Source of the DNA: an uncultured Gammaproteobacteria bacterium
Lineage (GTDB): Bacteria > Pseudomonadota > Gammaproteobacteria > GCA-002705445 > GCA-002716945
Direction: 5' to 3'
Length of the DNA stretch: 64,000 nt
Assembly: GCA_902559355.1 (NCBI GenBank)
Contig: CACEHM010000001.1
Location: 209,829-273,828, forward strand
In this document: positions 39,286-62,918 of the stretch, in pieces
Layout of the letters: each line of letters starts with the position of its first letter
How positions within the stretch are numbered: the first letter of the stretch is position 1
Notes under the pieces: model-generated
Database searches by the model: none
What the model was told of the DNA's origin: nothing
What the model saw: only the letters and a program-made list of their open reading frames with translations
Position numbers and translations under genes: made by a program

Positions 39286-39944
39286 TTAACATAGCAAATT
39301 GTCATGCCATCATAAATAGTTAATAGAGTGTGTTCAACTCTTTTATCAGAGTTAATCAATTGATTGATATCTCTTATAGATTGAGTGCTACTATTGTTAA
39401 TACTATTGTCATAAACTCTACCTTTCCAAAGAGTATTATCTATACATACCACACCACCTTTTTGCATCAATGGAATGATTTTTTCATAATACAAACAGTA
39501 ATTAGATTTATCTGCATCAATGAATGCAAAATCAAAATTATTGAGATCTTTTTTACTAAGCATACTCAATGCATCAATTGCATTATCCTCGATTAAATTA
39601 ACTTTATGTTCTATTTTTGCTTTTTTCCAATACTTTTTTGCAACATTTAAATATTCTTTATTGTTATCAATACATGTCAGTTTAGAGTCATCAGAAATAG
39701 ATGAACCAATACATAGAGAGCTATAACCTGTGAAGACGCCAACTTCCAAGCAATTCTTAAACTTTGAAATTTTACAGAGTATAGATAAAAGAGCTCCTTG
39801 TGCTGCACCTATTTGCATGATTGATATCGCCCCAAGCTTTTTTGTCTCTTTTCTATTTTCTTTAAGAATGTTTGATTCAGCATATCCTACAGAATCAACA
39901 TATTCTCGTAAGTCATCAGATATTATTGGCGATTCTACTGACAC
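39282..39944 (-). CDS. SAM-dependent O-methyltransferase
   Basis: LEVGVFTGYSSLCIG; FDFAFIDADKSNY. Confidence 0.9.
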   Translation of the reverse strand: MSVESPIISDDLREYVDSVGYAESNILKENRKETKKLGAISIMQIGAAQGALLSILCKISKFKNCLEVGVFTGYSSLCIGSSISDDSKLTCIDNNKEYLNVAKKYWKKAKIEHKVNLIEDNAIDALSMLSKKDLNNFDFAFIDADKSNYCLYYEKIIPLMQKGGVVCIDNTLWKGRVYDNSINNSSTQSIRDINQLINSDKRVEHTLLTIYDGMTICYVK

Positions 39945-40555
39945 TATTGTCTTCTTGCTTCAAACTCTATGATCAAGTCTATTTCATCTCCAACTAGATT
40001 ATCCTTAATCGCATACATCATTGCATGATCCGATCTTTTTATTGTTCCTCTGGCTGAAATTCCCATCACATAAGGTTTAATAATGCCACCAAAAGGATAT
40101 TTACCTATTTTATTTATCTTGCCAGTAAGGATAAGTGGTTTAGTGATTCCCAGTAATGTTAAATTTCCATTTATAATTGATTCATTATCATCAATTTTAA
40201 TATCTGTGGCTTCAAAAACCATTTCTGGATACTTTTCTACATATAAAAAATCTGGACTCATCAGATGCTCATCCCTTTTCTCGTCATTAGTAAATACACT
40301 GCTAGTTTTGATGACAATTTTTATATCATTAATCTTTTTATTTATTACATCATGTATGTAACTTCCATCTATATCCTTAAACATACCTAAGGTTTTTGCA
40401 TAACCTACATGTTCAACTAAAAAACCTACTGAAAAATGAGATTTATCAATAACATATTCATCTTCTGAGGCCCATACAGCTATTGGGAATAAGATTATTA
40501 AAATATATTTCTTAAACATTTCTTCTCCTATATAACCATATTGTATCTCTAACAA
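39944..40555 (-). CDS. YceI-family periplasmic protein
   Basis: YVIDKSHFSVGFLVEHVGYAKTLGMF. Confidence 0.92.
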   Translation of the reverse strand: MLEIQYGYIGEEMFKKYILIILFPIAVWASEDEYVIDKSHFSVGFLVEHVGYAKTLGMFKDIDGSYIHDVINKKINDIKIVIKTSSVFTNDEKRDEHLMSPDFLYVEKYPEMVFEATDIKIDDNESIINGNLTLLGITKPLILTGKINKIGKYPFGGIIKPYVMGISARGTIKRSDHAMMYAIKDNLVGDEIDLIIEFEARRQ

Positions 40556-41249
40556 AAGAGTAAGTTAATAAAATAATAATGACATATAACATATAAATTA
40601 TTGCGTCTATTGTATATAAATAGTTAGAAAGGATTAATATGATTATCATTGATACGCATATAATCTTTCTAAAGTATGAGCTAGGAAGGTTGCCATTACT
40701 TATGTATCCATATTTTACTAAAAATAAGAAAATATATCTATAAATTGGGACGCACATAATCATAAAACAAAAAGAATAATTATATATAAGAGAAAAACTA
40801 AGAATAAATATCAAAAAATTATCAACTTCTTGATCAAAAGTCTCTCCAAATTCTGTCTGCTGTCTAAGAAATCTTGATAGGTAGCCATCAGCCCCATCTA
40901 ATAATAGACTTATTACGCTTAGTACAAGAAGAAGGTAATGATTATAGTAATTTATATTCATCACTAATATTAAAATGAAGCAATTAATAATTAATCTATA
41001 GTTAGTTATCATATTTGGAATATTGTAAGAAAATTTATCTTGTCTCAGCAGGTAATGAAAAAGCATGCACGTAATTATATATATCATAATAGAGTCGTTT
41101 ATTATCAAAGGGATAGTATTTTTATCTGTTAAAGAAAAAATAAGAAATGATAAAAATATTAAATTAGTCACAATAACTTGAATGCTTATGTATCCACCGA
41201 TTATATTTTTGTTATAATTCATACATGAATCAGTATACAGCACAATCAT
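40512..41249 (-). CDS. CDP-alcohol phosphatidyltransferase family protein
   Basis: DGADGYLSRFLRQQTEFGETFDQEVD matches D-x2-DG-x2-(A)R-x8-G-x3-D-x3-D (A to S). Confidence 0.88.
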   Translation of the reverse strand: MIVLYTDSCMNYNKNIIGGYISIQVIVTNLIFLSFLIFSLTDKNTIPLIINDSIMIYIITCMLFHYLLRQDKFSYNIPNMITNYRLIINCFILILVMNINYYNHYLLLVLSVISLLLDGADGYLSRFLRQQTEFGETFDQEVDNFLIFILSFSLIYNYSFCFMIMCVPIYRYIFLFLVKYGYISNGNLPSSYFRKIICVSMIIILILSNYLYTIDAIIYMLYVIIILLTYSFVRDTIWLYRRRNV

Positions 41250-42193
41250 TTTGGGTATCTAAGAAAAAAGGTAGTATTAAAAAAGAACCTCTTGATACAT
41301 CTATGGAAAAAGATGAAATCTTAGTTAAGACATTATATTCCGGGATAAGTTATGGAACTGAAAAAATAGTTTTTGATGGACAAGTCCCGAAGAATCAATT
41401 TAGTTTTATGCGAGCTCCTCATCAAGAGGGTGAGTTTGATAGTGATCTAAAATATGGTTACTTAAATATAGGGAAGGTAATAGAGGGCCCAAAAAAATAT
41501 CTCAATAAGCATGTTTATACAATGTTTCCTCATCAGTCTATGTATATTATTCAAGCATCGCTAGCCACGCTTATTCCAAATGATATACCATTGAGAAGAG
41601 CTCTTCTTACGGCAAATATGGAAACAGCAATTAATGCCATGTGGGATACAAAACCAACAATAGGCGACAAAACATATGTCATAGGTGCAGGCATTGTTGG
41701 AATTCTTATGGCCTATGTTTTATCTGAGAGTTTTGGCATTGATGTTATTATCCTTGATAAGGATTCTAAAAAGAGAAAGACTTGTAAAGCTCTAGGGTTA
41801 ATATATAAAAGTGATCTAAGCTGTATAAATGAGGCTGACATTATTTATGAGTGTTCTGGTAACGCAGATGTGATAAATGAATTAATATCAAAATGTTCAT
41901 TAGAAACAAAGATATGCATTCTCAGCTGGTATGGCAAGCAACAAACTAAAATCAAAATGGGGGAAAACTGTTTTTCAAGAAGATTAGAAATTATATTCTC
42001 GCAAGTTGGGAATATATCAGCATATAAATCAAAAAAATGGAATAATTTAAGCAGAAGATTATTGGCTCTAAATATGTTGAAAGATAAAAGATTAGATACC
42101 TTGATTGATAAAAAAGAAATCTTTTTAAAAGACTTGCCGTCTTTTTTTAAAAAAGGAAATTCAAATGGTCTTTGTAAAGTTGTGAGATATTAA
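41225..42193 (+). CDS. MDR-superfamily dehydrogenase lacking catalytic zinc Cys
   Basis: YSGISYGTE in place of CG-x-CGTD; MRAPHQEGEF; Rossmann GAGIVG. Confidence 0.82.
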   Translation: MNQYTAQSFWVSKKKGSIKKEPLDTSMEKDEILVKTLYSGISYGTEKIVFDGQVPKNQFSFMRAPHQEGEFDSDLKYGYLNIGKVIEGPKKYLNKHVYTMFPHQSMYIIQASLATLIPNDIPLRRALLTANMETAINAMWDTKPTIGDKTYVIGAGIVGILMAYVLSESFGIDVIILDKDSKKRKTCKALGLIYKSDLSCINEADIIYECSGNADVINELISKCSLETKICILSWYGKQQTKIKMGENCFSRRLEIIFSQVGNISAYKSKKWNNLSRRLLALNMLKDKRLDTLIDKKEIFLKDLPSFFKKGNSNGLCKVVRY

Positions 42194-42586
42194 ATGTATG
42201 AACTGAAAATTAGAGACTATTGTTTCGTAGCACACAGTCTAAAAGATGATTTTTTCGGACCTGCTAAAAATCTTCATGGTGTTACCTATGTAGTTGATCT
42301 GATTATTTCTTCGAAGAAACTCATTGAGAAAAATGTAATTATTGATATTGGCATAGCGAATAAAGTATTAAAGACTGTTATTACACAATATAACTACAAA
42401 AATCTTGATGATATAGATAAATTTAACAATCACATTACTACTACAGAGTATATGGCAAAACAATTTGTTGATGATATTTGTATGGAATTACAGAATATTA
42501 ATTATCCAATTAACAAGCTTTACTCAATTAAAATTGAATTAAAAGAAAATCACATAGCTTCAGCTTCTTATTTAAAAATTATCTAA
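42194..42586 (+). CDS. Divergent PTPS/QueD-fold (6-pyruvoyltetrahydropterin synthase-like) protein
   Basis: FVAHSL...GPAKNLHGVTYVVDL, TTEYMAKQFVDDI; PTPS fold pattern with altered active-site residues. Confidence 0.82.
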   Translation: MYELKIRDYCFVAHSLKDDFFGPAKNLHGVTYVVDLIISSKKLIEKNVIIDIGIANKVLKTVITQYNYKNLDDIDKFNNHITTTEYMAKQFVDDICMELQNINYPINKLYSIKIELKENHIASASYLKII

Positions 42587-42587
42587 A

Positions 42588-43574
42588 GTGAACTATTTTA
42601 TTACTCCAGATCTCAAAAGTATATCTGGCGGGAATAAGTATGACTTAAATGTTATCGACTATCTTAATGCTCATAGATGTAAAATAGTCAATGTCACGCT
42701 AAAAGATATTAATTTATTATCATATAAGTTCTTCTTTAAAATTAATATGATTCCAAAAAACTCTACTTTACTGATTGATGGTCTAGTTGCATCGAAAATG
42801 AATCATCTTATAAAAATACTTTCAAAAAAATACAATATTATACTGCTGATTCATCACCCAGTATCATATGAGGAAAAGAAAAATGGAGATATTATTTCTA
42901 AGCTTAAAGAAAAGATAGTATTTTCTCACGCAAAAAGAATCATTACAGTTAGTCATACAATGAAAAAACTTATAAAAAATATGTTAACTAAAAATAAAAA
43001 TATTGACGTTATATATCCTGGAGTTGATAATATTTATCACCAGAATAAAATTACAAATCTAAGTATTAACCATAATATCGCCACTATAGGTTCTGTTATC
43101 CCAAGAAAAAATATAGAAAAATGCATTGAAACACTCAGTCATCTTGATAAAAAGTGGACTCTTTCGATATTCGGTGGGTTTTATGACAGCGATCCTTATT
43201 ATAAGAATCTTATTTCAAAAATAAATTATTATAATTTAAAAAATAGAGTTATTTTTCATAATACTGTTGACGAAAAAATATTAATTGAACATCTTAAAAA
43301 CTCTAGAGTTTATCTTTGCCTAAGTCAGTATGAAGGTTATGGAATGGCTAATATAGAGAGTGCAACTATTGGACTACCTCTAGTTGTATCAGATTTACCA
43401 GTATTCAGAGAAAATCTAATGGGGTTTAATAGAACTTACACAGATTCAAAATCTGCACGGGCAGTCGCAGATGCTATTATCAATACATCATTTGAAGATA
43501 ACCACATTAATTTAAGAACTAGAAGTTGGGGAGATGTCGGCTTTAGTTTTAAGCAGGTGTTAAATGGGCAATAA
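42588..43574 (+). CDS. Glycosyltransferase, GT-B family 4-like
   Basis: EX7E motif EGYGMANIE; IGSVIPRKNIEKCIE. Confidence 0.9.
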   Translation: MNYFITPDLKSISGGNKYDLNVIDYLNAHRCKIVNVTLKDINLLSYKFFFKINMIPKNSTLLIDGLVASKMNHLIKILSKKYNIILLIHHPVSYEEKKNGDIISKLKEKIVFSHAKRIITVSHTMKKLIKNMLTKNKNIDVIYPGVDNIYHQNKITNLSINHNIATIGSVIPRKNIEKCIETLSHLDKKWTLSIFGGFYDSDPYYKNLISKINYYNLKNRVIFHNTVDEKILIEHLKNSRVYLCLSQYEGYGMANIESATIGLPLVVSDLPVFRENLMGFNRTYTDSKSARAVADAIINTSFEDNHINLRTRSWGDVGFSFKQVLNGQ

Positions 43575-44436
43575 ATTTAGTAAATCATGGATTAATATGA
43601 GAGTAGGCTATGATAATATTTCTCGGAGTACAATCTTACTTGATCATATAAATAAATTATCACAAGAAGATGATATCGATCTTATAGATTTATACTGTGG
43701 ATCAGGTAACTTTTTAATATGGTCATTAGATAAAAATATTTCATTCAACAACTGTATATTAGTTGATCATGATATAAAATTGCTTAAATCAATAAAAAGT
43801 AATTTAAGAACTCATTTAAGACCAATGTATAGTATCCAGTCAAATACAAATAATCTTGATTTACTTATTAAAAAAAATTCCGAGATATTATCTACGATTT
43901 CAATTAAAAAAAATGATTGTGATAGTTACAGATGCTCATGTGAAAAATATCATGTAATAAGTTACTCAGCTGCACTCGATATTATGCCTAAGCCATCAAT
44001 AGGTAGCGCATTAAAAAGAATTAAAAAAAACAATATTCTTTATTTCTCCTTATGTTTTAATGGTAAAGTCAGGTGGACGCCTACAAATACATTTGATAAA
44101 TATATATTAACATTTTTTAATAATCATCAAAGATCAGACAAAGGATTTGGAAAGGCTCTCGGGTCTAAATCTATTGAATTTATAAAACAAAAAGCAGATA
44201 AACTTAATCTTAATATAACTATTAAAGATTCGCCATGGATTATAAAAAATAAATTTGATAAAGATAAAGTATTTATGAAAAGATATATTTTAGATATCAA
44301 GAAGTCTTTATTTCATATGGAGGGAATAGATAAAGATATACTTAGAAAATGGTATCAAGACAAAAAATCTGAAATTGATAATAAAAAAATCCAATTGTAT
44401 GTTGGGCACAATGATATCTTACTTTATAAAAAGTGA
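43564..44436 (+). CDS. Class I SAM-dependent methyltransferase
   Basis: LIDLYCGSGNFLIWSLD; FNNHQRSDKGFGKALG. Confidence 0.82.
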   Translation: MGNKFSKSWINMRVGYDNISRSTILLDHINKLSQEDDIDLIDLYCGSGNFLIWSLDKNISFNNCILVDHDIKLLKSIKSNLRTHLRPMYSIQSNTNNLDLLIKKNSEILSTISIKKNDCDSYRCSCEKYHVISYSAALDIMPKPSIGSALKRIKKNNILYFSLCFNGKVRWTPTNTFDKYILTFFNNHQRSDKGFGKALGSKSIEFIKQKADKLNLNITIKDSPWIIKNKFDKDKVFMKRYILDIKKSLFHMEGIDKDILRKWYQDKKSEIDNKKIQLYVGHNDILLYKK

Positions 44437-45305
44437 AAAATAATCTTAAATATTTTTTCTCAATAGCACTGATGAGCTATCTCATTGTATACTATGGAAA
44501 TGATATCAAACTTCTAATTAAAGAAGTCAATCTATTATATTTACCTTTAATTTTTTTATTAAGCTTGCTTCAATATTTTCTATCGGCATGGAGATGGCAT
44601 TTCATTGCCTCTAAAACAAGATCAAGAATTAACTACAAAGATGCGATAAGATTCTACTATATATCTGGATTTTTAAATAATATTCTTCCAACTGGGATAC
44701 TAGGGGATATCTATAGAAGTATAAATATAAAAATCAATGGGGAGAAAAGAGGAAATATCTTAAAATCCTTACAATCCGTCATTCTTGAAAGGCTATCAGG
44801 ACAAATAACGTTAGTTGTGACATTTATAATATCTCTATCATTATTTTTTTTTATTAATGAAAAATATACTGCATTCTATTATGTAGTAGGATCAATTCTT
44901 ATACTTTTCTTATTAATAAGATTATTTTTTAGATATAAACAAAATAATAAATATATTATTAATTTTAAATATATTTTTAGCGGAAAGCTTTTTTATAAGC
45001 ATTTCTTTTTATCATTGATAATTGTATTAACCTATATAACTACATACATAATTTGTGCATTTTCACTTAATCTCGATATCGATATCATTAGCTTCTTTGT
45101 CTTTGCGCCAATTATATTATTTTCAATGACTCTGCCTGTAAGCATAGGTGGCTGGGGTATTAGGGAAACAACTGCGCTAGCAATATCTTTTCTTTTAGGG
45201 TTAACGGTTTCTGCAAGCGTTACTGTTGCTATAGTATATGGTTTAACTAATTTATTTTGTTCACTTCCTGGTATGTATTTCTTAATCAACAGAAAAATTA
45301 GTTAA
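44433..45305 (+). CDS. UPF0104/lysylphosphatidylglycerol synthase TM-region-like membrane protein
   Basis: ILPTGILGDIYRSI, LPVSIGGWGIRETTALAISF. Confidence 0.88.
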   Translation: MKNNLKYFFSIALMSYLIVYYGNDIKLLIKEVNLLYLPLIFLLSLLQYFLSAWRWHFIASKTRSRINYKDAIRFYYISGFLNNILPTGILGDIYRSINIKINGEKRGNILKSLQSVILERLSGQITLVVTFIISLSLFFFINEKYTAFYYVVGSILILFLLIRLFFRYKQNNKYIINFKYIFSGKLFYKHFFLSLIIVLTYITTYIICAFSLNLDIDIISFFVFAPIILFSMTLPVSIGGWGIRETTALAISFLLGLTVSASVTVAIVYGLTNLFCSLPGMYFLINRKIS

Positions 45306-46077
45306 TTTCAATATCAAACAATATATCATTACCCATCTGATAATGATTTGGCTTGAAGGATTTTTGATTATTAAGCGCGATATATTTATCAGGTATAAAC
45401 GATGGTCGCCCACCTCCTAATATGATAGGGCACAAACAAATATGGATTTTATTTAAAATATTTTTGTTCATGAAATAAGATATAGTCCTACCTCCACCCT
45501 CGATGTAAATAGTCTGTCTTTCTTTATCATGTAAAGTCTTTTTCATTTCATCCAGATTATCTCTCAAATGGACTATATCACCCATGATATCTTTTTTTCT
45601 CAAAATTCTCTTTGGATCAAAAACATAAATCAACGGATTATTGCCCTTTACTAATCTAGTTGTTAGTTTTGGCTTATCTTCAAGATAAGTCTTTGCGCCA
45701 ACAATGATTACATCTGACACAGCTCTTAATCTATGAATATGTTCAAGATTTTCTTTACCACTGATATATTTTGACTCACCTGATTCTGTAGCAATAAACC
45801 CATCAAGAGATTGAGCAATGTGGGCGATATATTGAAATTTACCTTGAAAACAGACTATGGGCAAAAAAATATGGAATAGATTTTCAATATCTTTTTTTAA
45901 ATTTATATTAGTATCTTCAATATAATTTTTTTTTCGGTTATATCGAATTTGTAAAGTATTTTTCTGAGACTGTTCACTTATTTCAATAATATTTCTTTTA
46001 GTTTTATACTTCGTATTAGTATTAATGCTTAAAATAAGTGACCAAGCAGTTTTTTTTGTTATACTGATTTTAGACAT
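45298..46077 (-). CDS. RibD C-terminal (pyrimidine/DHFR-like) reductase without deaminase domain
   Basis: AQSLDGFIATESGESKYISG, LRAVSDVIIVGAKTYLEDKPKLTTR, IYIEGGGRT. Confidence 0.88.
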   Translation of the reverse strand: MSKISITKKTAWSLILSINTNTKYKTKRNIIEISEQSQKNTLQIRYNRKKNYIEDTNINLKKDIENLFHIFLPIVCFQGKFQYIAHIAQSLDGFIATESGESKYISGKENLEHIHRLRAVSDVIIVGAKTYLEDKPKLTTRLVKGNNPLIYVFDPKRILRKKDIMGDIVHLRDNLDEMKKTLHDKERQTIYIEGGGRTISYFMNKNILNKIHICLCPIILGGGRPSFIPDKYIALNNQKSFKPNHYQMGNDILFDIEIN

Positions 46078-46318: not shown

Positions 46319-46774
46319 TTATAGTATGGTTGGATTTGGCGCGTCGCCATAAACTTCCTCAGGATCAAATATTTTTTCATCTTCAATAAACTTCAATTCT
46401 AGCTGTTTTGAATTTAAGTCAATCTCTCTATAAAAACATGACTTGTATCCAACATGACAGCTTGCTTCACCTCTTACTGAGACATTGAGCCATATACAAT
46501 CTTGATCATCATCAATAAAAATATTCTTAACATCTTGGATTAGACCGCTAGTAGCACCTTTATGCCATAAACACTTTCTACTACGACTGTAATAGTGAGC
46601 TTCTCTTGTTGTTATTGTCTTTTTTAATGCTTCCTCATTCATATATGCGTGCATTAGAACAACTCCTGTTTTAGCATCCGTGGTTACTACAGGAATAAAA
46701 CCATTTTTATCAAATTTAGGAGCTAGGTCTTTTCCTTCTTCAACTTGTTTTATTGTCTCTCTTTTTTTAAACAT
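46319..46774 (-). CDS. hisI: Phosphoribosyl-AMP cyclohydrolase, HisI-only (start MFKKRETI)
   Basis: MHAYMNEEALKKTITTREAHYYSRSRKCLWHKGATSG; CHVGYKSCFYR. Confidence 0.94.
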   Translation of the reverse strand: MFKKRETIKQVEEGKDLAPKFDKNGFIPVVTTDAKTGVVLMHAYMNEEALKKTITTREAHYYSRSRKCLWHKGATSGLIQDVKNIFIDDDQDCIWLNVSVRGEASCHVGYKSCFYREIDLNSKQLELKFIEDEKIFDPEEVYGDAPNPTIL

Positions 46775-46985
46775 TCTTTTTTTTCTTAAAGTTTTTTCTA
46801 GTTTTGCTAAGATGCTTTTCATGTACATCCTTTGTGACAAATATTTTACCACAGTAATAACATTCTGCACTCCCATCTTTTAATGTTAGATATACATTAG
46901 GATGCTTGCCAGAAATGACATCTCCATTACAAGAAGCGACTGTCACATGATTCTCTACTATCTTTAGGTTCTGACGTTTCAGCAT
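46767..46985 (-). CDS. Zinc-finger domain protein (zf-CHCC, NDUFS6-like)
   Basis: SCNGDVISGKHPNVYLTL...CYYCGKIF. Confidence 0.8.
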   Translation of the reverse strand: MLKRQNLKIVENHVTVASCNGDVISGKHPNVYLTLKDGSAECYYCGKIFVTKDVHEKHLSKTRKNFKKKKNV

Positions 46986-46987
46986 AT

Positions 46988-47647
46988 TTATAAAGAGGAA
47001 AAATCACCTAACTTCATTAGTCGTTCTCTAAATTTTTCTTTTATCTCTTCAGTTAAAGGCTTTATATCTAATGCTTGTTTCATTAATTCAATATTTTTTA
47101 CATCAACAAATAACAAATGAGCAATATCTTTTATACTCATAGAGTTTTCTTCAGAGTGCACTTTATCAATTGCATCACCCGGGCTAATTTCACCGTCATG
47201 TATTACGCGTAGATAACTACCAAGCAATCCTGATTGAGAAAACATTTTTGGAAATTCTCTACTATTTAGTTTAATTCCTATTTTGTAGCATGGGATTCTT
47301 GGCTGACTTACTTGGAGTAAACATTCATTTATTTTGAATTGATCTCCAATTTTAATTTTGTCTTCGTCGAAATCATCAATTGTCAAATTCTCGCCGACTA
47401 AACCGTACTCTTTGAAATCACTATTTAGCTTTTCACTCCACGTTTGATAATGTGTATATGAATATGCATATACAGCTTTATCATAACCGCCATGAACAGT
47501 TAAATCTGCTTGTCTATCACCCTCAATTCCTTGCGATGATACTGTAACTTTGTTACTTACAGGCTTTTTATAAATACTTGTGATAAGCTCTTTACCATTA
47601 AAAGTAACCTTTTGTGGCTCAGAAACATTTATAGACAGAATTTTCAT
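46988..47647 (-). CDS. MOSC-domain protein
   Basis: GIEGDRQADLTVHGGYDKAVYAY; YGLVGENLTI. Confidence 0.94.
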   Translation of the reverse strand: MKILSINVSEPQKVTFNGKELITSIYKKPVSNKVTVSSQGIEGDRQADLTVHGGYDKAVYAYSYTHYQTWSEKLNSDFKEYGLVGENLTIDDFDEDKIKIGDQFKINECLLQVSQPRIPCYKIGIKLNSREFPKMFSQSGLLGSYLRVIHDGEISPGDAIDKVHSEENSMSIKDIAHLLFVDVKNIELMKQALDIKPLTEEIKEKFRERLMKLGDFSSL

Positions 47648-47670
47648 ACATTTACCTTAATTATATTAAC

Positions 47671-48552
47671 ATGAATTTATTTAAAACTAACTGGTTCCTT
47701 CTAATAATACTATCTGCTATCTGGGGTGGTGCATTCACTTTGAATAAATTAGCTCTAGATTTCTATACCCCGGAGGTCATTGTTGCAGGTAGATTAATCT
47801 CAGGTTCAATATTTCTTGTTGTGCTTGTCTATTTTATGTATAAGAGATTCACAATCAGTTTCTCTGAGTTAAATTATTATCTTTTTATGAGTCTTGTAGG
47901 AATTGTTATTCCTTTCATTGCAATTATAAACGGACAAAAAAATATTGACAGTGCTATGGCCGGTATACTAATGGCTACAATGCCGATAACTACAATTCTA
48001 CTATCACACTTCTTTCTAGTAGATGAAAAAATGAATCAACAGAAGTTCATCGGATTTATAATATCTTTTTTTGGTGTTTTTATTCTTATATACCGAGATG
48101 ATCTGTTTATAAATAATTCATTTAGCTCGACTTTAGAATCTCAATTGTTAGTAATGCTAGGATCTACCTTGTATTCAGTAGCTGCTATTTATGGTAAAAA
48201 ATATAAAATGACTGATCCTGTTAGTGCCTCTACAGGAACAATACTCTTTGCGACATTTTTCATGTCAATATATCTGTTACTTATAGATAAAAGTAATCCT
48301 GATATAAGCGATTTGATGCTTAATACTAATATTCTTTTACTAGGCATATTATGTACTGCAATTGCAACAATAATTTATTTCCAAATATTACAAACATCAG
48401 GGGCATCCTTTTTATCAATTATGAACTTCCTTATACCGCTTTGGGCTATTCTTTTTGGCATATTGATACTGGATGATGCATTTAGTTGGAATTATATTTT
48501 AGGTTTAGCAGTAATCTTATCGGGTATTAAATTAGCAAATTCTAGGCGTTAA
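47671..48552 (+). CDS. EamA/DMT-family transporter
   Basis: SAIWGGAFTLNKLAL, 10-TM pattern. Confidence 0.92.
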   Translation: MNLFKTNWFLLIILSAIWGGAFTLNKLALDFYTPEVIVAGRLISGSIFLVVLVYFMYKRFTISFSELNYYLFMSLVGIVIPFIAIINGQKNIDSAMAGILMATMPITTILLSHFFLVDEKMNQQKFIGFIISFFGVFILIYRDDLFINNSFSSTLESQLLVMLGSTLYSVAAIYGKKYKMTDPVSASTGTILFATFFMSIYLLLIDKSNPDISDLMLNTNILLLGILCTAIATIIYFQILQTSGASFLSIMNFLIPLWAILFGILILDDAFSWNYILGLAVILSGIKLANSRR

Positions 48553-48591
48553 TTTATTTATCCATAACTATATATATAGTAGTATTAGGTC

Positions 48592-48885
48592 ATGAATAAA
48601 AAAACAGAAATTGAAGCTGCAACATTCAGGAGAATTGTAAAGCATTTACAAGAGAATCCTGATGTCCAAAATATTGATTTAATGAATTTAGCGAACTTTT
48701 GTAGAAATTGTATTTCAAAATGGTATGTATCAGAGTCTTCCTCCCAAGGTGAAGAATTATCATATGATGCTGCAAGAGAGTTAATATATGGAATGCCTTA
48801 TGATAGTTATAAAGAAAAATATCAGAAAGAGGCAACAAAAGAACAACTGGAAAAATTTAATGCTAGCCAAAAAAACAAAGGCTGA
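48592..48885 (+). CDS. DUF1244 protein
   Basis: NLANFCRNCISKWYVSES; ARELIYGMPYDSYKEKYQ. Confidence 0.88.
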   Translation: MNKKTEIEAATFRRIVKHLQENPDVQNIDLMNLANFCRNCISKWYVSESSSQGEELSYDAARELIYGMPYDSYKEKYQKEATKEQLEKFNASQKNKG

Positions 48886-49627
48886 TTTAACTGATAAACA
48901 ATTACTAAGATATAATAGACATATTGTTCTTCCTGAAATTGATATTGATGGACAAACAATACTTGTAAATTCAAAAGTTGCAATCATTGGTCTAGGTGGT
49001 CTAGGTTGTCCTGTATCTACATACCTTGCATCTTCTGGTCTCGGGACCTTATTGCTAATAGATGACGATACAGTATCATTAACCAATCTTAATAGACAAA
49101 CTCTATTCACTGAAAATGATCTTAATAAAAACAAAGTAGATGCGGCATCGAAAAGACTACTGGCTCTCAACTCTGACTTAACAATAAAGACTGATAGGTC
49201 TAGGGTTGATCAAAGATTTGATACAAGCAAACTCAAAGAATTCGATGTAATTATTGATTGTACAGATAACTTTGAGGCAAGAACCCTTATTAATCAAATA
49301 TCTCTTTTACATCGAATACCACTTATAACTGGAGCAGCATTAAAGTTTGAAGGGCAAGTCGCAGTCTTTAGAAATGATATTGATGATGAGCCATGTTATC
49401 GATGTTTATATCCAGACCTTCCTGATATAAAAAATACATGCATAGATTCTGGTATCCTTGGCAGTGTTACTGGTTTCGTCGGCACTATCTTAGCGACAGA
49501 ATGTATCAAAGTGTTGTGTAAATTTGGAAAAACATTTGAAAGTAAACTTTTTCTATTAGATCTAAAAAATAATGATTTTAAAACAATCAAAATTAATAAA
49601 GACGATGAATGTCGATACTGTAAATAA
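48860..49627 (+). CDS. moeB: ThiF/MoeB-family adenylyltransferase
   Basis: RYNRHIVLPEIDIDGQ; IGLGGLGCPVSTYLASSG; RCLYPDLP; C-x2-C tail. Confidence 0.9.
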   Translation: MLAKKTKADLTDKQLLRYNRHIVLPEIDIDGQTILVNSKVAIIGLGGLGCPVSTYLASSGLGTLLLIDDDTVSLTNLNRQTLFTENDLNKNKVDAASKRLLALNSDLTIKTDRSRVDQRFDTSKLKEFDVIIDCTDNFEARTLINQISLLHRIPLITGAALKFEGQVAVFRNDIDDEPCYRCLYPDLPDIKNTCIDSGILGSVTGFVGTILATECIKVLCKFGKTFESKLFLLDLKNNDFKTIKINKDDECRYCK

Positions 49628-50624
49628 ATACAAAGACGTGCTATCACGTGAATTTGAATATCTTAGGATATCAGTTACAGACCGTTGTAACTATAGATGT
49701 AGCTACTGTATGCCCTCTGAAATATTTAATAAGGACTATAGTTATATCAAACAAAGTAAAATTTTATCCTATGAGGAGATTATTCAAATAACAACAATAT
49801 TAAAGAAAATTGGACTAAAAAAGATAAGGATTACCGGTGGAGAACCTTTATTAAGAAAAAATATAGATAAGTTAATCTATAAACTAAAAAATGAAGTAGG
49901 TATCAAAGATGTAAGTATGACCACAAACGGTTCTCTTCTAACAGACAAGAAACTGAATGAGCTCAAAGCTTCAGGCTTAGATTCAGTTACTCTCAGTCTG
50001 GATACATTGCACTATGATAAGACTGCACAAATAAATGGAACTAAAAAAACATTTGACCTGGATAAAGTCTTAGAAGGCATAGAAAAATATTTCAATATAG
50101 TAAAGACAAATACTGTTGTTATTAAAAGTATCAATGACGAAGAAGTATTAGATATTATTGATAAAATGATTGGGATAACTTCAGAAGTAAGATTCATTGA
50201 ATATATGGATGTTGGTGAATCAAATAACTGGAACCTAGACAAAGTTGTGCCATCAAGTCAACTTTTAAAATTGATCATTTCAAGATATAACCTCTCGCTG
50301 ATTGAAACTAATAAATCTTCCACAGCGCAAAAATGGTCTATAGATAATACAAATACTTCTGTGGGCTTTATTTCATCTATTACCGAACCATTTTGCAATG
50401 GATGCAATAGGGCAAGGCTTTCTGTTGATGGAAAGTTATACACATGTCTATTTGCTACGGAAGGACATGATCTTAAAAAAATTATTAGAGCGGGAGCAAG
50501 TGGCCAAGATGTTTTAGACTACTTTTATAATATATGGAGTAAGCGATCAGATAGATATTCAGAGCTCAGATTTATAAATAAAATTGATTCACCAAAAGTC
50601 GAGATGTCTTATATTGGCGGATAA
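49605..50624 (+). CDS. moaA: GTP 3',8-cyclase
   Basis: LRISVTDRCNYRCSYCMP; C-terminal CNGCNRARLSVDGKLYTCLF. Confidence 0.97.
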   Translation: MNVDTVNKYKDVLSREFEYLRISVTDRCNYRCSYCMPSEIFNKDYSYIKQSKILSYEEIIQITTILKKIGLKKIRITGGEPLLRKNIDKLIYKLKNEVGIKDVSMTTNGSLLTDKKLNELKASGLDSVTLSLDTLHYDKTAQINGTKKTFDLDKVLEGIEKYFNIVKTNTVVIKSINDEEVLDIIDKMIGITSEVRFIEYMDVGESNNWNLDKVVPSSQLLKLIISRYNLSLIETNKSSTAQKWSIDNTNTSVGFISSITEPFCNGCNRARLSVDGKLYTCLFATEGHDLKKIIRAGASGQDVLDYFYNIWSKRSDRYSELRFINKIDSPKVEMSYIGG

Positions 50625-61735: not shown

Positions 61736-62545
61736 TTAGTCTTTAACTTTATGAATTTGTGCATATGCGGAGTGATTGTGAATCGATTCAAAATTTTCTG
61801 ATTCAACTGTATATTCTGTTACTCTCTCATCATTCTTAAAATGAACGGCAATATCACGAACCATGTCTTCAACAAACTTTGGATTATCATAAGCTCGCTC
61901 TGTAACAAACTTTTCATCAGGTCTTTTTAAAAGACCGTATAATTCTGATGAAGATTCACTCTCGACGATATCAATTATTTCTTCAATCCAAATGAAATCT
62001 TTTATAGCTACAGTGATAGTCACATGCGATCTTTGATTATGAGCTCCGTATTCAGATATTTTTTTTGAGCATGGACACAAGCTTGTAACTGGAACCAAAA
62101 CTTTCACTTTAAGCTTGGATTTACCATCTTCAATTTCTCCTATAAACGAGACTGTATAGTCAAGGAGACTTTGAACTTTAGAAACTGGAGCAGTTTTGTT
62201 TATAAAATATGGAAACTTCATTTCTATATGACCTGAATCAGCTTCTAAGAGTATTAGCATTTCATCAATCATCTTTCTAAATGAATCAACCGTTATTTGC
62301 TCTTCATGATTATTCAAAATATGAACAAATCTAGACATATGAGTTCCTTTGAAATCATGAGGAAGATTTACATACATATTAAAGTTAGCAATGGTTGATT
62401 GCTGTTTTCCAGATCTTTGTTTTATTACCATAGGATGTAGAATATCTTTTATTCCTACTTTATTGATAGGCATATTTCTTGTATCAGCCTGTCCTTGTGT
62501 ATCTGGTAAATTTGAAATTTCTAATTTTGACTTTGATGTTGACAT
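61736..62545 (-). CDS. folE2: GTP cyclohydrolase FolE2 (type IB)
   Basis: [35 protein letters not shown]. Confidence 0.96.
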
Positions 62546-62549
62546 ATAT

Positions 62550-62918
62550 TCACTCTGTATAAGTTACTGCTGCGTTACTAGTTTCCCACAGTTTTATTTT
62601 ACTGACTTTTATATTATCAGTATTAATATTATTTGATAGTTCTTTATAAATATATTTCGATATATTTTCTGCTGTTGGGTTTTCATTGATAAAAGGTTCT
62701 AAATCGTTGAGAAATTGATGATCTAGATTAGAAATTATTTCTTTAAGGTTATTTTTAATATCTTTAAAATCTATTACCATACCAATTTCATTGGTATTAT
62801 CTCCTTGAACTTCTGCCTCAACAAGCCAGTTATGCCCATGCATTCTTTTACAGTTTCCTGGATGACCATGAAGTATATGGGCTGATGAAAATTCCTTTTT
62901 TACAATTAGCTTAAACAT
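62550..62918 (-). CDS. queD: 6-carboxytetrahydropterin synthase
   Basis: [28 protein letters not shown] with catalytic Cys and three zinc His. Confidence 0.94.

Follow-up and report, generated by a model that had tools for sequence, protein, structure and literature searches.

A gene at 42194–42586 (+) of the window (the whole 64,000-nucleotide stretch of DNA analyzed here) raises the question of what a member of the PTPS/QueD family can do once its catalytic cysteine and one of its zinc-binding histidines are gone. The reading frame is open and encodes 130 amino acids. It matches the PTPS family (PF01242) with an E-value of 1.8e-17 and 63.9 bits (cut-off 22.4), but scores 40 bits with the QueD equivalog model, far under the cut-off of 89.25. 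The QueD of the same window, against which the preliminary description had compared it, is indeed canonical (145.6 bits with PF01242, 107.7 bits with the QueD model); it lies on the minus strand at 62550–62918, the plus strand of this interval being rich in stops. Directly adjoining it is a gene called by eye as a FolE2-type GTP cyclohydrolase IB (61736–62545 (−)), and the two plausibly form a queuosine/folate entry pair.

Alignment of the two proteins sets the segment GPAKNLHGVTY against the corresponding eleven residues of QueD, such that the cysteine is replaced by Ala24 and HGH becomes HGV (V30), while two zinc-ligand histidines, H14 (of FVAHSL) and H28, are retained. Both replacements, and the survival of the first histidine, had been read correctly from the sequence beforehand. 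What had been overlooked is that the catalytic Asp-His pair of QueD (NLDHQFLND) is gone as well, being aligned with N67-Y68 (YNYKNLDD), and that the pterin-anchoring glutamate is kept (LWET in QueD, LKEN here; E118). The exchange of Cys for Ala24 combined with that of Asp-His for N67-Y68 means that the entire catalytic triad is lost. The zinc, triad and pterin-anchor roles of these positions are those that we take from established knowledge of QueD and PTPS. With one ligand lost the zinc site is predicted to be incomplete and, given that the Cys-Asp-His triad is also missing, the side-chain elimination performed by QueD and PTPS is not to be expected of this protein.

The motifs that separate the branches of the family tell the same protein apart. 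The CxxxHGH of QueD reads AxxxHGV, the ExxHGH of folate PTPS-III is absent, and the FGPAQ signature of PTPS-IV is present as FGPAK (FGPAQ in most relatives). An AlphaFold2 model (pLDDT 94.6) has the T-fold, which bears out the claim that the overall fold pattern remains and, with a PF01242 score over the cut-off, places the protein in PTPS/COG0720. The closest solved fold is that of SCO6650 from Streptomyces coelicolor (PDB 3D7J, TM 0.94), followed by E. coli QueD (4NTK, TM 0.75); dihydroneopterin aldolase and GTP cyclohydrolase IB are weaker matches. Comparison of sequence profiles also ranks 3D7J first (E 1.4e-36), and in a phylogenetic tree SCO6650 falls inside the subfamily of the window protein whereas QueD falls outside, on a long and fully supported branch. 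SCO6650 shares the T-fold, 34% identity and the pattern GPAQ/HGA/ESH with the window protein; its structure, described in 2008, reportedly contains no zinc and no catalytic triad but keeps the residues of the pterin site. QueD (PTPS-I) in turn has the T-fold, two zinc histidines and the pterin glutamate in common with PTPS-IV, which differs in lacking the cysteine, the third histidine and the Asp-His pair and in a neighborhood that is not of the queuosine type.

The window protein is thus a member of the already described PTPS-IV (SCO6650-type) subfamily. In the AGeNNT study (PMC5445326) FGPAQ-type sequences are designated PTPS-IV and have GCH2 (PF00925, there named GTP cyclohydrolase I) and RibD_C genes as neighbors; Zallot et al. 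(PMC5041015) use the same name and mention an unpublished role in F420 synthesis. Our literature search on the cluster described below found nothing beyond these two papers, which name PTPS-IV, and no known reaction for an enzyme whose crystal structure has been available since 2008. The observation as worded in the preliminary description is therefore that of a known subfamily; the part worth following is the gene cluster around it, with its testable logic leading from GTP cyclohydrolase II (GCH II) to a pterin.

Conservation across the subfamily supports the reading of the active site. Sixteen relatives from the same bacterial family (~1 Mb genomes, 45–76% identity) have A24, H14, H28 and E118 in common and a residue other than His at position 30; within this family Ala24 is found without exception (17/17). 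In a wider alignment of 88 sequences from several phyla, which includes plasmid-borne copies and SCO6650, A24, H14, H28 and E118 are each found in 88/88. The alanine is accordingly conserved; the valine is not, position 30 being A, V or T, but never His (0/88). At the positions of the catalytic Asp-His pair, N and Y/M predominate. Polar residues that are invariant in the subfamily include H14, S15, H28, T31, D51, N70, D72, T84, E85 and E118. A conserved replacement cysteine, which together with a third histidine would have spoken against the original reading, was sought in every column of the alignment and none was found (at most 7%). A histidine two residues past E118 (H120) occurs in 86/88, but some members have Pro or lack the residue, so that it is not an obligatory third ligand.

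Most of the 88 sequences came from a genome scan using motifs around LHG[AVT]TY and L[NK]E[SN]H, so that frequencies at positions 30 and 120 are possibly biased. As a control, 274 class-level genomes were searched with a profile that required no motif; true members scored more than 130 bits. The search recovered PTPS-IV from 12 genomes (about 4%), of which three belong to the same family as the window; below them the scores fell to around 60 bits, with QueDs that carry CxxxHGH. All 12 members have Ala and HG[AVT], and 10 have the extra histidine. Pairwise dN/dS between the window gene and its near relatives is ~0.08–0.11 where synonymous change is not saturated. Judged by these sequences, the gene belongs to a stable subfamily under purifying selection. 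The replacements being fixed in a distinct clade, the earlier suggestion that standard 6-carboxytetrahydropterin synthesis is unlikely and that the protein has probably been repurposed gains support, as it does from the canonical QueD kept in the same genome and from the type of neighborhood. At least 581 relatives were confirmed, so that the automatic label ‘6-carboxytetrahydropterin synthase’ is corrected on at least several hundred genes.

In the window PTPS-IV is the second of five genes arranged head to tail, with ends that abut or overlap. The stop of a dehydrogenase of the MDR superfamily (41225–42193 (+); similar to BchC, TarJ and polyol dehydrogenases, with the Asp/Glu that NAD-dependent enzymes have following the dinucleotide fold) abuts the PTPS-IV start. 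Downstream follow a GT4 glycosyltransferase (42588–43574 (+); PF00534, E 2.3e-20), a putative class I SAM methyltransferase (43564–44436 (+); weak matches to UbiE/TrmA-type models, orthologues annotated as SAM-dependent methyltransferase) whose gene shares 11 nt with that of GT4, and a flippase-like membrane protein of the LPG_synthase_TM family (44433–45305 (+); PF03706, E 3.7e-33) whose gene shares 4 nt with that of the methyltransferase. Genes on the opposite strand flank this series: on one side a stand-alone RibD_C reductase with no deaminase domain (45298–46077 (−); PF01872, E 1.6e-28), on the other a divergent CDP-alcohol phosphatidyltransferase (40512–41249 (−); PF01066, E 1.8e-18), the start of which overlaps that of the MDR gene by 25 nt, and a YceI-like periplasmic protein (39944–40555 (−); PF04264, E 1.5e-34), a frequent but less tightly linked neighbor. 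An Rfam search of the window and seven related loci returned only tRNAs and no riboswitch. Beside the cluster, at 46319–50624, lie hisI and genes read by eye as encoding a MOSC-domain protein, an EamA transporter, a MoeB/ThiF-like protein and MoaA; the order from hisI to MoaA is common to relatives of the same family, but not to Marinobacter and other carriers.

The association of these families with PTPS-IV recurs. Neighbors within 8.5 kb (YceI anywhere in the locus) were counted in 35 dereplicated loci flanked by 6 kb or more in each direction: MDR was found in 32, GT4 in 31, RibD_C in 28, the methyltransferase in 27, CDP-alcohol phosphatidyltransferase in 20, GCH2 in 17, the flippase-like protein in 16, a creatininase-family protein in 14 and YceI in 13. 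The subfamily studied here thus shares with published PTPS-IV both the FGPA[QK] signature and the neighborhood of GCH2 and RibD_C, of which the window locus has RibD_C only; the MDR, GT4, methyltransferase, flippase-like, CDP-alcohol phosphatidyltransferase and creatininase genes go beyond the neighbors given in the main text of the published account. Carriers of the cluster belong to six phyla: Pseudomonadota, Bacteroidota, Gemmatimonadota, Acidobacteriota, Fidelibacterota and, by way of a Microbacterium plasmid, Actinomycetota. A set of seven to ten genes that is retained in ~1 Mb marine genomes, and that is also plasmid-borne, appears to make a pterin-type molecule, and its neighborhood yields a concrete and testable chemical order of steps.

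Two of the families are those of the first two steps of riboflavin synthesis, RibA and the reductase domain of RibD. Zinc cysteines and the tyrosine of ordinary GCH II are kept in 19/20 aligned GCH2 ORFs, as judged against an E. coli GCH II reference; the twentieth, a distant ORF, is unlikely to be a cluster GCH2. In this retained tyrosine the loci differ from SCO6655, a GCH2 homologue near SCO6650 that is reported to make a formylated product. The cluster reductases carry no deaminase motif (0/50), in contrast to riboflavin RibD; their best PDB matches are 6P8C and 2AZN, and they are nearest to the 2,5-diamino-6-ribosylamino-pyrimidinone 5′-phosphate reductases. In the window genome the RibD_C is an extra paralogue, one RibBA-like GCH2 and one RibD being encoded on another contig; neither a cluster GCH2 nor a creatininase was found in this genome. 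For the MDR protein the nearest folds include TarJ and the sorbitol, xylitol and arabinitol dehydrogenases (13–17% identity), with no substrate singled out. Its members are mostly acidic (Asp/Glu) at the NAD-type position, and classical zinc-ligand motifs are absent from the conserved columns of their alignment.

From the chemistry of established pathways we infer a sequence of reactions and a product. GCH II, from the cluster copy in many genomes and from RibBA in the window genome, would open GTP to 2,5-diamino-6-ribosylamino-4(3H)-pyrimidinone 5′-phosphate. The stand-alone RibD_C reductase would then convert the ribosyl to a ribityl chain and leave the ring undeaminated; with no deaminating step the 2-amino group, which E118 would bind, is retained. 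Binding of the 2-amino group is the function of the conserved glutamate of T-fold enzymes. The MDR dehydrogenase, using NAD, may oxidize a hydroxyl of the side chain, most plausibly at C2′, in the manner of TarJ and the polyol dehydrogenases. The resulting 2′-ketone would be the Amadori-type intermediate of GTP cyclohydrolase I (GCH-I), and by condensing with the 5-amino group could give a monophosphate of the 7,8-dihydroneopterin type. PTPS-IV may hold the pyrimidine or pterin by way of E118 and promote ring closure, or the next step on the side chain, with no metal. Decoration of the pterin would fall to the GT4 and methyltransferase, and the flippase-like protein and CDP-alcohol phosphatidyltransferase may attach it to, or move it with, a membrane lipid; the presence of these four families suggests a decorated, membrane-associated product.

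That PTPS-IV is a metal-free T-fold enzyme acting on a 2-amino-4-oxo-pyrimidine derived from GCH II and RibD_C, within a pterin pathway of the cluster, is the account that we tentatively favor, while holding its chance to be a little below even. The whole scheme, a GCH-I-independent pterin route running through GCH II, RibD_C, C2′ oxidation by MDR and ring closure at a PTPS-fold enzyme without zinc to a glycosylated, methylated, lipid-associated pterin, and distributed from streamlined marine Gammaproteobacteria to Bacteroidota and Actinomycetota, we regard as rather unlikely to be right in every part. Against the favored account stand an MDR protein without classical zinc-ligand motifs and whose fold matches point to no single substrate, Streptomyces plasmid copies of PTPS-IV without MDR, GT4 and RibD_C, and a window genome without cluster GCH2 and creatininase, in which GCH II activity would therefore come from the riboflavin enzyme and the coupling be indirect. 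In addition, a GCH-I route (FolE2, called by eye) already supplies dihydroneopterin triphosphate in the window genome, so that a second route to pterins needs a reason. The same FolE2-like gene is an argument for a different substrate: within the cluster pathway PTPS-IV could take a ready-made pterin supplied by GCH-I (dihydroneopterin phosphate) and act on it in the manner of FolB, for instance as an aldolase or epimerase that needs no metal, with RibD_C reducing pterins in the way of DHFR. There are T-fold enzymes that bind a pterin through a glutamate and use no metal, dihydroneopterin aldolase (FolB) is a weak fold match, and the RibD_C fold is DHFR-like, with one DHFR-annotated entry among its matches. 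However, it is GCH2 and not GCH-I that recurs beside PTPS-IV (17/35 loci; also PMC5445326), the RibD_C proteins are nearest to ribosylaminopyrimidinone-phosphate reductases, and the lysine typical of FolB is not among the invariant residues of PTPS-IV. We consider action on a preformed pterin possible, at well under an even chance.

The loss of every recognized catalytic residue while the pterin anchor is kept would also suit a protein that is no longer an enzyme but a scaffold or carrier binding the pterin or pyrimidine product of the cluster. Such a role seems improbable to us, since many other polar residues are invariant (the nine that accompany E118 in the set above) and point to an active site, and since genes of this kind in biosynthetic clusters are usually catalytic. 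Involvement in F420 synthesis, as stated for PTPS-IV (PMC5041015), fits the window lineage poorly. The products of GCH2 and RibD_C are precursors of the deazaflavin FO too, but in the 16 genomes searched there is no CofD and CofH gave only partial, sub-threshold matches (~20 bits, the cut-off being 374), and the families that recur in the cluster include no FO genes; the role is disfavored in this lineage and we rate it very improbable. Least probable of all, to the point of being scarcely credible, is a folate bypass of the PTPS-III/VI kind or a decaying paralogue of QueD. Membership of the PTPS fold family would accord with either, but the window genome and nearly all relatives encode FolB, and the bypass motif is missing. 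A dN/dS of ~0.1 together with the invariant replacements argues against a decaying QueD or pseudogene, as does retention throughout the family in ~1 Mb genomes that have a canonical QueD.

Several carriers place the gene on plasmids. On the Microbacterium plasmid pSGAir0570_2 a seven-gene set (locus L129, 1970–12969) lies a few kb from recombinase and Mu-type transposase genes, and horizontal transfer of the cluster is likely here; an Agrobacterium plasmid bears a similar set, with GCH2. The two Streptomyces plasmid relatives, in contrast to the window gene with its MDR, GT4 and RibD_C neighbors, stand alone: on these giant linear plasmids (L125 and L131, around 12000) the lone PTPS-IV is found beside genes for MBL-fold, cupin and MEKHLA-domain proteins. 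In many GCH2-bearing loci (L048–L116) the creatininase-family gene adjoins the cluster GCH2. The archaeal FAPy deformylase ArfB is of the creatininase family, so that a formylated intermediate could be the substrate of the cluster creatininase. In some carriers the neighborhood also includes a cytochrome b561-like gene (L126, 11528–12085; L127, 12011–12544; L094; L087), in one of them together with YceI, which hints that the product has a redox role in the periplasm.
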